A stretch of 56,235 nt of DNA, from assembly GCA_016870475.1 (NCBI GenBank), contig VGBO01000009.1, forward strand, positions 1-56,235, given 5' to 3'. This DNA is from Actinomycetota bacterium (GTDB lineage: Bacteria; Actinomycetota; Acidimicrobiia; Acidimicrobiales; CAIXPF01). This document shows, piece after piece, positions 15,224 to 36,878 of this stretch; the stretch's first letter is position 1; each line of letters opens with the position of its first letter. The translations under genes were made by a program, and so were the position numbers. A model generated the notes under the pieces. The model did no database searches. It saw only the letters and a list, made by a program, of their open reading frames with translations, and was not told the origin of the DNA.

Positions 15224-16246
15224 ATGTCCGCCATCGGCGTCACCTTCGCCAGCTTCTCCGCCCTCGGGTCCGCCCGCGGTCTCGGCGCCGCCCGACTCGC
15301 CGCCGACCTCGGCTACGGGTCCTTCTGGACGGCGGAGGCCTCGGCGATGGACGGCTTCACCATGCTCGCCGCGGCCGGTGTCGCGGCGCCGTCCCTCGAT
15401 CTCGGGACCGGGGTGCTGCCGATCCAGCTCCGGTCCCCGCTGCTCGTCGCGATGACCGCGGCGACGCTGCAGGACCTCCACCCCGACCGGGACGTCCTCG
15501 TCGGCGTCGGCATGTCCTCACCGGTGATCACCGAACGCTGGCACGGTGTCCCCTACCTGCCCGACGGCACCACCCCGCTCGCCTACATGCGCGCCTACCT
15601 GACCGTGCTCCGATCGCTCCTCGCCGGCGAGGAGGTCACCACGACCGACGGGCCGATCCGGCTGCGGGGCGCCCAGCTCGGCGTGCGGCTGCGGGACCGG
15701 CGGCCGAAGACGGTGCTCGCCGCCCTCAACCCCCGCATGCTCGCGCTCGCCGGCGAACTTGCGGACGGGGTGCTGCTCAACTATTTGCCGGCGAGCCACG
15801 TCGCATGGTCGGTGGAGCAGGTGCGGCGCGGTGAGGCGGCCGCCGGCCGACCCGCAGGGTCCTGCACCGTCTACGCGTACGTGCACGTCGGCGTCGGCGA
15901 CGCCGAGGCCTCCCGCGACCGGGCCCGCCGTGACCTGTGGTCCTACGCCGTCGTCGACGGCTACGCCCGCAACTTCGACCGTGCCGGGTACACCACCGAG
16001 ATCGCCGGGGTCCGCGAGGCGTCGGCCCGCCGCGACCGGGCGGCGGCGATCGCAGCGATCTCGGAACGCATGTGCGACGACATCGACGTCATGGGCGACG
16101 AGGACCTCGTGCGGAACACCGTCGCCGCCTATCTCACCGCCGGCGTCGACCACGCCGTCGTCATGCCGTTGCCGTGGGGCGAGGACCGCATGGGCGTGGT
16201 CGAGGCGACGCTGCGGGCGGTCGCCCCGCTCGCCGACGGCGTCTGA
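15224..16246 (+). CDS. LLM-class flavin/F420-dependent oxidoreductase
   Basis: 340 residues of the bacterial luciferase-like TIM-barrel type. Recognisable stretches are AADLGYGSFWTAEAS, LDLGTGVLPIQLRSP, DVLVGVGMSSPVITERWHG, and the late VMPLPWGEDRM. In F420-producing Actinobacteria such proteins often use F420 rather than FMN, and a cofC gene is in this window; cofactor choice is inference. ATG 15224 follows TAGTGT (15212-15217) by six bases. It ends four bases from the convergent second LLM gene. Confidence 0.88.
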   Translation: MSAIGVTFASFSALGSARGLGAARLAADLGYGSFWTAEASAMDGFTMLAAAGVAAPSLDLGTGVLPIQLRSPLLVAMTAATLQDLHPDRDVLVGVGMSSPVITERWHGVPYLPDGTTPLAYMRAYLTVLRSLLAGEEVTTTDGPIRLRGAQLGVRLRDRRPKTVLAALNPRMLALAGELADGVLLNYLPASHVAWSVEQVRRGEAAAGRPAGSCTVYAYVHVGVGDAEASRDRARRDLWSYAVVDGYARNFDRAGYTTEIAGVREASARRDRAAAIAAISERMCDDIDVMGDEDLVRNTVAAYLTAGVDHAVVMPLPWGEDRMGVVEATLRAVAPLADGV

Positions 16247-16249
16247 GGG

Positions 16250-17230
16250 TCAGCGGGGCGCGAGGTCCCGGCACGCCTGCCGGACGTCGATCCCGCCGAA
16301 CTTCATCACCGACAGCGCCGGGGTGGTCACCCCGGCCTCGATGTAGCGCCCGATGTGCTCCCGGCACGCCTCGGGAGAGCCCCACACGATGAGCTCGTCG
16401 ATGAGGTGGTCGGGGATCGCCGCGAGGGCGGCCTTGCGGTCGCCCGCCTTCCAGTGCTGCCACATCGGGGTGAGCACGTCGCTGCGCCCGAGCCACTCGT
16501 GGAACGCCGCGTAGACGGGGACGTTGAGGTACGCCGCGATCGCCATGCGGGCCCCGGCGTAGACCGCCTCACGGTCGGTCGAGGGGCACACGAAGATGCG
16601 GGCGACGATCTCCTTCGGCGTGCCACCTCCGGCCTCCTGTACCGGCCGGACGACCGCAGGCACGTCGGATGCGGCGAGCCAGTTGATGATCGCCCCGTCG
16701 CCCTCACGGCCGGCGAGGCGCAGCATGCCCTCGCGCAGCGCGGCGATGAGGATCGGGACCGGCTGCTCGGGCAGGATCCCCGAGCGGAACCCGTTCACCT
16801 CGAAGGTGTCGTAGCGCTCCGTCACCTTCTCCCCGGCGAGCGCCGTCCGCAGGAACCGCACCATGTCCCGGGTCCGCTTGTACGGCTCGACGAAGGGGAT
16901 CCCGTTCCAGCGCTCGACGATCACGTTCGAGGACGTGCCGATCCCGAGCACGAACCGGCCGGGGGCGGCCTGTGCGACCGACGCGACGGTCTGCGCCATG
17001 AGCGCCGGCCCCCGGGTGAAGGCCGGCACGATCGCACAACCGAGGCGGAGCGACGGGGCCCACTGCGAGGCGAGGACCAGCGGCGTGAAGGCGTCGGCGC
17101 CGTCGGCCTCCGACGACCAGACGTCGGTGTAGCCGAGATCGGCGAGCTCCGCGACCCAGTCCCGCTGGGCGTGGAGGGGGACCCCGGCGAAGGGGATGCT
17201 CATGCCGTAGCCGTGGTGCAGTCCGCTCAT
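16250..17230 (-). CDS. LLM-class flavin/F420-dependent oxidoreductase
   Basis: 326 residues from ATG 17230; a second luciferase-like barrel, related to but clearly diverged from its convergent neighbour (AELADLGYTDVWSSEADGADAFTP, RFVLGIGTSSNVIVERWNGIPF, VSPEACREHIGRYIEAGV-like end). ATG 17230 is preceded by a strong AGGAGGAGG about seven bases upstream. An alternative ATG at 17275 has TACAGT (17290-17285) nine bases before it, so the transcript probably starts near 17277 and the longer 341-residue form is possible. Substrate unknown. Confidence 0.86.
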   Translation of the reverse strand: MSGLHHGYGMSIPFAGVPLHAQRDWVAELADLGYTDVWSSEADGADAFTPLVLASQWAPSLRLGCAIVPAFTRGPALMAQTVASVAQAAPGRFVLGIGTSSNVIVERWNGIPFVEPYKRTRDMVRFLRTALAGEKVTERYDTFEVNGFRSGILPEQPVPILIAALREGMLRLAGREGDGAIINWLAASDVPAVVRPVQEAGGGTPKEIVARIFVCPSTDREAVYAGARMAIAAYLNVPVYAAFHEWLGRSDVLTPMWQHWKAGDRKAALAAIPDHLIDELIVWGSPEACREHIGRYIEAGVTTPALSVMKFGGIDVRQACRDLAPR

Positions 17231-17352
17231 GCCGGGTCCTCCTCCTCGCCGGGCCACCTCGTCGGCACCGGTCATCGCCGGCGGACTGTAGCGGGCGGGC
17301 CACAGGGTCGGCCGCAGGCTTCGTTGTCACACCCGCCCGGCACCATGGCGCC

Positions 17353-18807: not shown

Positions 18808-19356
18808 ATGGCCGGCAGCGTCGGGCATGCTCGGACCTGGCGACGCGGCACGGCGCCGTTGCTCGTCGTGCTCGCGTCGTGCACGTCCACGACGCCCCCA
18901 CCGACCGACTCCATGCCGGCGCGCGCACCGGCGGAACGCACCGTGGTCGTCGCCGTCATCGACGGCGACACCGTCGACGTCCGCATCGCAGGGCGAGCCG
19001 AACGCGTCCGGCTCATCGGCGTCGACACCCCCGAGACCGTGCATCCGAACAAGCCCGTCGAGTGCTACGGACCCGAGGCGTCGGCCCGCCTCAGCGAACT
19101 CCTGCCGCCGGGAACCGAGATCGACCTCGCCGGCGACGTGGAGGAGCGCGACCGCTACGGCCGCCTGCTCGCCTATGTGCTCCGCCGCACCGACGACCTC
19201 TTCGTCAACCTCGCCCTCGTGGCCGAGGGGTACGCCGGCATCCTCCCCCTCCCCCCGAACACGGCCTTCGCCGCCGATCTCGAAGCGGCCGAGGCGACGG
19301 CGCGCGCTGCGCGCCTCGGCCGTTGGGGCAGCTGTGCCGCAGGCGCCGGCCGATGA
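18808..19356 (+). CDS. Thermonuclease (SNase-like) lipoprotein
   Basis: 182 residues. A short N-terminus with Arg, hydrophobic stretch and lipobox LVVLASC (Cys near 25) marks a lipoprotein exported by Sec or Tat (TWRRG precedes it). The SNase fold follows: VVVAVIDGDTVDVRIAGR with active-site Asp, VRLIGVDTPETVHPN, then DRYGRLLAYVL and a C-terminal GRWG. It probably degrades extracellular DNA/RNA at the cell surface for phosphate or nucleoside scavenging. GGGGAGGA (18794-18801) is six bases before ATG. Confidence 0.88.
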   Translation: MAGSVGHARTWRRGTAPLLVVLASCTSTTPPPTDSMPARAPAERTVVVAVIDGDTVDVRIAGRAERVRLIGVDTPETVHPNKPVECYGPEASARLSELLPPGTEIDLAGDVEERDRYGRLLAYVLRRTDDLFVNLALVAEGYAGILPLPPNTAFAADLEAAEATARAARLGRWGSCAAGAGR

Positions 19357-19386
19357 GGCCGGCCGACACCGCTAGCGTGCGGAGCG

Positions 19387-20232
19387 GTGACCTCGAAGCT
19401 CCTCCACCGCCTCGGCCTCCTCGAGACCACCCGGGCCCTCGTCGTGTCCTGCAGTGGGCTCGGTGTCAGCCACGCCACCACCCAGGGCGTCCTCGGTGCC
19501 CTCCGGCTCGGTGTGGCGACGACCGCCTCCCTGATGGTGCCCTGCCCGTGGGCACGCGACGCCGCTGGCCGCGCGACGAACCGCGACGACCTCGGGGTGG
19601 CGATCACCCTCAACGCCGAGAACGATCAGCTCCGCTGGGGTCCGATCACCACGGCGCCCACGTTGCACGACGGCGACGGTGGCTTCCCCCGCACCGTCGA
19701 GGACCTCTGGGACCATGCCGATGTCGAGGAGGTCCGCCGGGAGGGTCGGGCGCAGCTCGAGCGAGCCGTGCAGTGGGGCATCGACGTCACCCACCTCTCG
19801 AGCCATCTCGACGCACTGCTCCTGCGTCCGGAGTTCTACGACGTGTACCTCGACCTCGCCGTCGAGTTCGGCCTCCCGATCCGCCTCCCCGAGCCGGCTG
19901 CCGAGGCCCGCGTGCAGTTCCCGCTGCGCGACCTCGCCGAGGAGGCTTCGGTGCTCCACGTCGACCGAGTCGTCAGCCTCCGCTCGACCGGTTCACGTAC
20001 CGCGCTCCTGGAGGTTCTCCGCAGTCTCGAGCCGGGGGTCACCGAGGTGCGGCTCCGCCCCGCGATCGACAGCGCCGAACTCCGGGCGTACGCACCTGAT
20101 TGGGCGAACCGGGTCGACGACTACAACCTCGCCACGGGCGATGCCGAGCTCGCCGCCGTACTCTCCGGCGTGCGCCGCCTCGGCTACCGGGAGCTCCGCG
20201 CCGCGCAGCGCTCGTCACCGACGCCCCGCTGA
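19387..20232 (+). CDS. ChbG/HpnK (YdjC)-family protein lacking its metal ligands
   Basis: 281 residues with the overall layout of YdjC-type carbohydrate deacetylases: glycine turn, GALRLGVATTASLMVPCPWA, LNAENDQLRWGPIT, VTHLSSHLDALLLRPEFYDVYLDLAVEFGLPIRLPE. The metal-binding residues are replaced, however: the DDxG motif reads S23-G24-L25-G26, the GxHLTL histidine is Ala72, and the D of the DSH motif is Ser138; His136 and His140 remain. The frame is intact over its full length, so it looks like a maintained pseudoenzyme rather than debris. GTG 19387 follows TAGCGT (19373-19378) by eight bases. Confidence 0.78.
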   Translation: MTSKLLHRLGLLETTRALVVSCSGLGVSHATTQGVLGALRLGVATTASLMVPCPWARDAAGRATNRDDLGVAITLNAENDQLRWGPITTAPTLHDGDGGFPRTVEDLWDHADVEEVRREGRAQLERAVQWGIDVTHLSSHLDALLLRPEFYDVYLDLAVEFGLPIRLPEPAAEARVQFPLRDLAEEASVLHVDRVVSLRSTGSRTALLEVLRSLEPGVTEVRLRPAIDSAELRAYAPDWANRVDDYNLATGDAELAAVLSGVRRLGYRELRAAQRSSPTPR

Positions 20233-36080: not shown

Positions 36081-36878
36081 GTGACCTCCCGCGACCGCAG
36101 CGCCGACGACGGCACCACCGCACCGCTCACCTACGGCGCCGTCGCCGCCACGGTGCAGCGCGACCTCCCGACCCCTGCCCGGGTGCTCGCCACCGGCGCG
36201 CACCCCGACGACATCGAGTTCGGCTGCGGTGGGACCCTCGCCAAGTGGGCGGCCGCCGGCGCGGAGATCCACCACCTCGTGTTCACCGACGGCTCGAAGG
36301 GGACCTGGGACCCGGGCGTCGACCCCGCGGAACTGGTGGTCCTGCGACGGTCCGAGCAGCGTGCCGCCGCAGCAGCGCTCGGCGCACGCGGCGAGGTCGT
36401 GTTCTGCGGGTGGACCGACGGTGAGCTCGAGTCGGGCCTACGCCAGCGCGGGGTGACCGCGTCGTGGATCCGACGACTCCGCCCCGACGTCGTGATCGGC
36501 CACGACCCCTGGAAGCGCTACCGCCTCCACCCCGACCACCGCAACGCCGGGCTCCTCGCCGTCGAGGGCATCGTCGCCGCACGGGACCCGCTGTTCTTCC
36601 CCGAACAGGCGCTCTCGCCGCACCGGCCGTCGGCACTGCTGCTGTACGAGGCCGACGAGGTCGACCACGTCGAGGACGTCACCGGGTTCGCCGAGCGCAA
36701 GATCGACGCGCTGCTCGCGCACGCGAGCCAGTTCCGCTCGACCATGCACATCGACGGCGACGACGACGGCCGCCAGCTCGCCGTCTTCCGCGGCCGCATC
36801 CTCGACCGGCTCGCCGACCACGGCGGGATCGTCGGCGTCGCCGAGGGCGAGGCGTTCAAGCGCATCGACCGGCTGTGA
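36081..36878 (+). CDS. PIG-L family N-acetylglucosaminyl/LmbE-like deacetylase
   Basis: 265 residues. The zinc motif AHPDDIEFGCGGTLAKW and the downstream HPDHRNAGLLAVEGI are those of the PIG-L/MshB superfamily, which deacetylates GlcNAc-inositol in mycothiol synthesis or related amidated sugars. Nothing distinguishes MshB from other LmbE-like deacetylases here; no other mycothiol gene is in the window. Its TGA overlaps the next GTG by three bases (GTGA), so the DUF429 gene is coupled to it. Confidence 0.88.
   Translation: MTSRDRSADDGTTAPLTYGAVAATVQRDLPTPARVLATGAHPDDIEFGCGGTLAKWAAAGAEIHHLVFTDGSKGTWDPGVDPAELVVLRRSEQRAAAAALGARGEVVFCGWTDGELESGLRQRGVTASWIRRLRPDVVIGHDPWKRYRLHPDHRNAGLLAVEGIVAARDPLFFPEQALSPHRPSALLLYEADEVDHVEDVTGFAERKIDALLAHASQFRSTMHIDGDDDGRQLAVFRGRILDRLADHGGIVGVAEGEAFKRIDRL

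Follow-up and report, generated by a model that had tools for sequence, protein, structure and literature searches.

It is likely, though well short of certain, that an order-wide orthologue of the YdjC (ChbG-like) family has lost metal-dependent deacetylation and has been kept for a non-catalytic job. The member of this group described here is encoded in the window, that is, the whole 56,235-nucleotide stretch of DNA from an Actinomycetota bacterium that was analysed (Table 1), and the window protein probably does something other than sugar deacetylation. By its fold and Pfam match it belongs to YdjC, and by its catalytic residues it stands outside the YdjC deacetylases.

Table 1. Coordinates of the YdjC-fold gene in the window, of its notable codons and segments, and of the features upstream of it
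Feature	Coordinates	Strand	Remarks
CDS of the YdjC-fold protein (putative pseudoenzyme)	19387..20232	+	281 aa, GTG start, stop included
SNase-family nuclease, upstream neighbour, active-site residues intact	18808..19356	+	profile match, locus comparison
TAGCGT, -10-like TANNNT, proposed leaderless promoter	19373..19378	+	starts 14 nt before GTG; order-wide conservation
Ser23-Gly24 codons, replacing general base Asp and metal Asp (ChbG D10, D11)	19453..19458	+	alignment
Ala72 codon, replacing metal His (ChbG H61)	19600..19602	+	alignment
Loop, residues 76-103	19612..19695	+	N76, R83, W84, D95, G96, G98, G99 and P101 kept, lost as in intact members; low pLDDT
Mostly helical stretch, residues 104-131	19696..19779	+	smallest conservation drop; W108, H110, D112, E115, E119, Q123, R126, W130
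Ser138 codon, replacing Asp of the D-x-H motif	19798..19800	+	not a ChbG metal ligand; alignment
His140 codon, metal ligand kept (ChbG H125)	19804..19806	+	alignment
Arg224 codon, replacing general acid His (ChbG H206)	20056..20058	+	alignment

The ORF translation of the plus-strand frame reads through 281 codons without an internal stop. Its product matched the Pfam YdjC profile (PF04794) over most of its length, with an E value of 1.1e-36 and 127.5 bits against a gathering cut-off of 29.7. An AlphaFold model, for which 18 family sequences served as input, had a mean pLDDT of 82.1 and a pTM of 0.83. The top structural matches of this model were all YdjC proteins (8jqf, 8jqe, 2i5i, 2e67 and 7vi8), with Z scores running from 28.4 to 23.0, the latter for ChbG (7vi8), and with the next match at 16.5; Foldseek ranked the same YdjC entries first. 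The initial annotation had proposed an intact YdjC scaffold of 281 residues, and had suggested structure prediction and superposition on ChbG as a check; on both the Pfam match and the structural comparison the YdjC fold is kept. One loop (residues 77-99) was poorly predicted. However, an intact relative, L043, gave a similar model in which this loop is just as weak; catalytic loss is therefore not the cause of the low pLDDT.

In a study of ChbG (PMC9402603), zinc is bound by D11, H61 and H125, D10 is proposed to act as the general base, and the general acid is H206; the H61A and H206A mutants gave no product, and D10A failed to express. By alignment, D10, D11, H61, H125 and H206 correspond to Ser23, Gly24, Ala72, His140 and Arg224, and thus the window protein carries a different residue at four of the five catalytic positions. 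Only one of the three metal ligands (His140) is kept in place of the D, H, H set of ChbG, the general base and general acid give way to Ser23 and Arg224, and the window protein differs from ChbG at both positions whose mutants were without product as well as at D10 and D11. From these residues we infer that it is inactive as a deacetylase. The translation bears out the replacements first noted, namely SGLG at residues 23-26, Ala at 72 and Ser at 138. The accompanying statement that the replaced residues hold the metal was right for Gly24 and Ala72, which occupy ligand positions, but not for Ser23 and Ser138, as judged from PMC9402603. Similarly, the catalytic site is gone as had been claimed, but it had been overlooked that the ligand His140 survives and that the general acid is missing too, with Arg224 in its place. 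Two trivial explanations were ruled out. When the window protein was aligned with four solved YdjC proteins, the region of residues 23-26 matched their DD motif without a gap, and the substitutions there are therefore no alignment slip. Assembly error is excluded by the recurrence of losses across genera and in single-contig genomes (G037, G055, G092 and G177).

All 6 genomes of the window's family contain a match to the protein, as do 329 of 397 genomes sampled from its order (259 of 291 among good genomes), figures that are slightly high for the orthologue because a few of the order matches are a distant second copy or a fragment (e.g. G066 and G074). The remaining 68 of the 397 had no match, and the gene is therefore not indispensable. 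In a draw of 296 genomes from the phylum, 33 matched: 20 belonged to the order, one (G439) was a close orthologue from the same class and 12 were weaker. Close orthologues are thus rare in the phylum outside the order, and the contigs that carry names place the orthologue group in the class Acidimicrobiia.

Relatives were called lost when a metal ligand or the general base was replaced, and partial when only residue 138 and/or 224 was replaced. In a draw of 99 relatives, the same orthologue could be scored in 87 genomes, 42 of them lost and 45 not lost; the other 12 comprised 10 without a match, one with only a distant copy (G066) and one with a fragment (G074). The window protein had been presented as a single odd protein; its substitutions are real, but it is one instance of this order-wide pattern. 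Of 107 proteins in an initial alignment, 55, including seven second copies, carried the five-residue signature DDHDH, and the remainder showed 40 other forms. When six residues were scored across 90 genera, 32 kept DDHDHH throughout, 16 were partial, 40 were lost and 2 were mixed; extra relatives of lost lineages, including several lost f33 genera, had been added, so the genera are no random sample, and the count without this bias is the 42 of 87 given above. These counts rest on the 90 coded genera and supersede an earlier one-per-genus set of 104 rows (43 complete, 16 partial and 45 lost), which serves the conservation figures only; that set includes the class-level row L184 and 13 contigs without a genus code, and two of its rows (L038 and L047) duplicate genes of other genomes. 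Since all six signature residues are kept in every sampled member of only 32 of 90 genera, a Pfam match alone is an unsafe basis for annotating this widespread gene as a deacetylase.

Both mixed genera contain different states among close relatives. In g26, L120 (genome G170) is complete whereas L063, L119 and L121 (G028, G114 and G194) are lost, and in g32, L124 and L125 (G118 and G239) are without the general acid only whereas L019 (G034) is minus a metal ligand. Seven genera of family f7 (L093, L097, L185-L187, L191 and L194) have the form DDHAHQ in common, in which the metal ligands and base are kept and D138 and the general acid H224 are lost; it is possible that this form represents an intermediate stage. 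Genome G092 holds a lost copy (HDQDHH, L111) together with a second, intact copy (DDHDHH, L067) of the same group, the latter 43% identical to the window protein. Erosion was not seen as a general trait of YdjC proteins: outside the order, the class-level orthologue L184 and eight of nine other phylum homologues (L197-L205) keep all six residues, the exception being L201, which carries E for the metal D.

A gene tree of 113 rows was built with the catalytic columns removed and rooted on the intact L198; it leaves out most f33 rows as well as L196, L110 and L114. If loss is assumed to be irreversible, the maximum likelihood tree has 17 losses, and Fitch parsimony gave 12 changes. After branches were collapsed, the minimum was 12 losses (branches under 50/50), 9 (under 80/80) or 4 (under 95/80). 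The deep branches are weakly supported, and 17 is therefore the upper figure. The multiple origin of the losses is firm, their exact number is not. We put forward more tentatively the stronger statement that a near-universal orthologue had an ancestral non-catalytic function strong enough to let the site be dropped on some 9 to 17 independent occasions.

The eroded gene had been taken to be maintained, and its frames, close-pair dN/dS and conserved -10 element all agree with this. A single frame covers the whole domain in all 99 lost rows sampled, and these rows show none of the frame-disrupting changes in relatives that the initial annotation had named as a refutation; since only ORFs of 140 aa or longer served as rows, a severely disrupted copy might have escaped. 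The genome tables flag stops within some matches, mostly those reaching query residue 277-281; in the one case inspected (L178) the flagged stop lies upstream of the frame, and G416 and G329 are outside the sequence set. Among 86 close lost pairs (80 to 99.5% identical), which come from about 14 genera, are non-independent and include one pair counted twice (L047 = L123), dN/dS had a median of 0.086 and a range of 0.022-0.24. For 56 intact pairs, which are more divergent, the median was 0.171, and the 12 intact pairs above 85% identity gave 0.046 to 0.178. Therefore, lost members are under purifying selection similar in strength to that on intact ones over short distances. Synonymous sites saturate in this GC-rich DNA, and dN/dS of distant pairs is of little use; the window branch itself, whose nearest relative is 70% identical, gave a poorly measured ratio of 0.27 at a dS of 0.9. 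The combination that marks a pseudoenzyme, lost catalytic residues under purifying selection, is accordingly seen for pairs of lost relatives and not for the window branch alone.

The leaderless promoter suggested at the outset is supported by the TANNNT at -14. An element of this form starting at -15 to -11 before the start codon was present in 113 of 166 orthologues, whereas a control stretch upstream had it in 8 of 166; start codons were picked by alignment, so some may be off. A sigma-70 two-hexamer scan of the promoter region found nothing. By eye, a GC inverted repeat of 7 bp with a loop of 5 is seen at window positions 19345-19363, where it overlaps the SNase stop and precedes the promoter; it has no T run, and a terminator scan made no call there.

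An explanation by relaxed selection would hold that the deacetylase is unneeded in many lineages, that the gene is heading for loss and that its full frames are a matter of slow decay. Lost members do have longer root-to-tip paths (median 1.60 vs 0.95 for intact members), and this faster overall evolution indicates that some constraint beyond the site has been relaxed. The 68 order genomes without a match, the diversity of substitutions at the site and the somewhat lower frequency of the -10 element in lost (59/95) than in intact (54/71) members point the same way. However, slow decay sits poorly with a domain spanned in every sampled lost row, with the low dN/dS of close lost pairs and with entire genera that hold the lost form: in g61 the gene is present in 10 of 11 genomes and lost in all 10, and in g37 it is present in all 6 and every copy is lost. 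We thus regard relaxed selection as unlikely.

Retention for a non-catalytic job also raises the question of where constraint remains. For this purpose 149 columns conserved in complete members were scored in 35 of the 45 lost rows (families f33 and f23 omitted). Identity in lost rows dropped by a mean of 0.59 in the six catalytic columns, a figure that is partly circular because four of the six define the lost class, and by a mean of 0.13 (median 0.08) in the other 143. The largest further drops were at columns 21, 141, 145, 142, 200, 238 and 169; columns 138, 224, 21, 141, 142, 145, 238 and 245 were not used in defining the lost class. Regional mean drops were smallest at residues 104-131 (0.05), 76-103 (0.06) and 214-233 (0.07). 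We read this pattern as a pocket that may have been released while a surface or framework was retained, and the constrained segments could be a surface for a partner protein or ligand. The residues of the ChbG dimer, mapped by eye, gave no clearly conserved positions. The same segments are kept in intact as in eroded members, so the binding role probably arose before the losses.

The conservation data bear as well on the idea that eroded members are still enzymes that use the same pocket for other chemistry, either metal-independent or with different ligands. The one-per-genus set still has the metal ligand His140 in 35 of its 45 lost rows, and the loop at 76-103 is conserved, both of which would agree with this idea. 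The old motif, however, has no common replacement. In the same 45 rows, residue 24 is G in 15 and D in 9, and is otherwise N, Q, E, L, S, R or others. At position 72, H persists in 7 rows, and the rest carry Q, E, S, A, N, R, D, L, T or G. The columns around the pocket have been released too, and other chemistry therefore seems improbable to us.

With regard to possible partners, an SNase gene was found directly upstream at 33 of 38 lost compared with 22 of 53 intact loci. On 85 tree rows the figures were 31 of 34 lost and 21 of 51 intact (Fisher p 2.9e-6); with only three independent supported pairs, a sign test did not separate this association from phylogeny. By eye, the SNase N-terminus resembles a lipoprotein signal. 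Of 58 loci that extend over 7.3 kb or more, 42 have a gene for Mca (mycothiol conjugate amidase) close by, namely 21 of the 31 intact loci and 21 of the 27 lost ones. In 40 of these 42 it is encoded on the opposite strand, and the family was verified on two members. In the window genome, mca is located on C47 instead (G000:C47:6222-7070). Both SNase and Mca are partner candidates as leads only, and no link is claimed for either. Within the window, positions 36180-36638 gave a weak match to the Mca model (34.6 bits, under the cut-off), and two luciferase-like monooxygenase genes (15224-16246 and 16250-17275) face each other with three bases between them.

The catalytic sites of these neighbors, scored at residues and motifs that we take to be the functional ones, are well kept. 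All five SNase active-site residues are present at 32 of 33 lost loci (the remaining row is gapped at four) and at 21 of 22 intact loci (the other has N for a D), and both metal motifs of Mca are present at 26 of 27 lost and 30 of 31 intact loci that have it. The search for an intact paralogue, which the initial annotation had recommended, found a distant second YdjC in the window genome at C24:4612-5388; another occurs in four of the window's five family members, 30-35% identical over the matched part, and in each of the five second copies of this family the five scored residues are all in place. With the SNase and Mca sites and the second YdjC copies intact, erosion is specific to the pseudoenzyme gene. 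The presence of a second YdjC in the window genome and most of its family suggests a takeover of the reaction by that paralogue, which would have relieved this copy of it, but such a takeover is very unlikely as a general cause of loss, since a second YdjC occurs in 11 of 42 lost and similarly in 10 of 45 intact genomes and the family's second copy is so distant, although it might still apply in the window's own family.

A course of events by which the orthologue came to lose deacetylation and to be kept for a non-catalytic job can be proposed as follows. The ancestral YdjC orthologue may already have had a binding role beside catalysis, and this role would have made catalysis dispensable. The active site was then lost on several to many branches of the gene tree, with different replacements, while the constrained segments would form the surface that binds a partner protein or ligand.

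Gene duplication is an origin often given for pseudoenzymes. Here the site was lost repeatedly from the orthologue itself while the rest was conserved, and most of the lost genomes (31 of 42) carry no further YdjC. Thus, a comparison of sister lineages can test which of the two, catalysis or binding, is under selection in a YdjC protein. If the proposal is correct, the order offers a natural replicated experiment in which the enzyme, half-eroded and dead versions coexist among close relatives.

In the open-access literature, we found no report of a YdjC pseudoenzyme, of an Acidimicrobiales pseudoenzyme or of repeated loss of this kind. With ChbG of Klebsiella pneumoniae (PDB 7vi8), the window protein shares the fold over residues 15-270, at 22% identity, and one metal His; unlike ChbG, it is without the general base, two of the three metal ligands and the general acid. 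None of the curated NCBIfam cut-offs was reached: the score was 54.1 bits against 227 for ChbG (NF002559), and the sequence is similar to HpnK and to the carbohydrate deacetylase family CarbhyDeactlThm (NF052308), at 70.4 and 148.9 bits, far under cut-offs of 232.6 and 400, respectively. The closest solved protein is CmCBDA (PDB 8jqe and 8jqf; Z 28.2 and 28.4, identity 26% and 27%), and TTHB029 (PDB 2e67) matched with a Z of 24.4 and 33% identity. Both have the stretch that follows the second metal motif in common with the window protein, but in the alignments both keep the residues that it has replaced. Inactive yet retained proteins with a deacetylase fold do have a precedent in Bacillus. 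BA3943 (PDB 7bkf; Z 11.4) is titled a CE4 pseudoenzyme in its structure entry, and BA0330 and BA0331 are reported to be inactive and to matter for salt stress and cell shape (PMC4505593); these proteins belong to a different family (CE4/NodB) rather than to YdjC.
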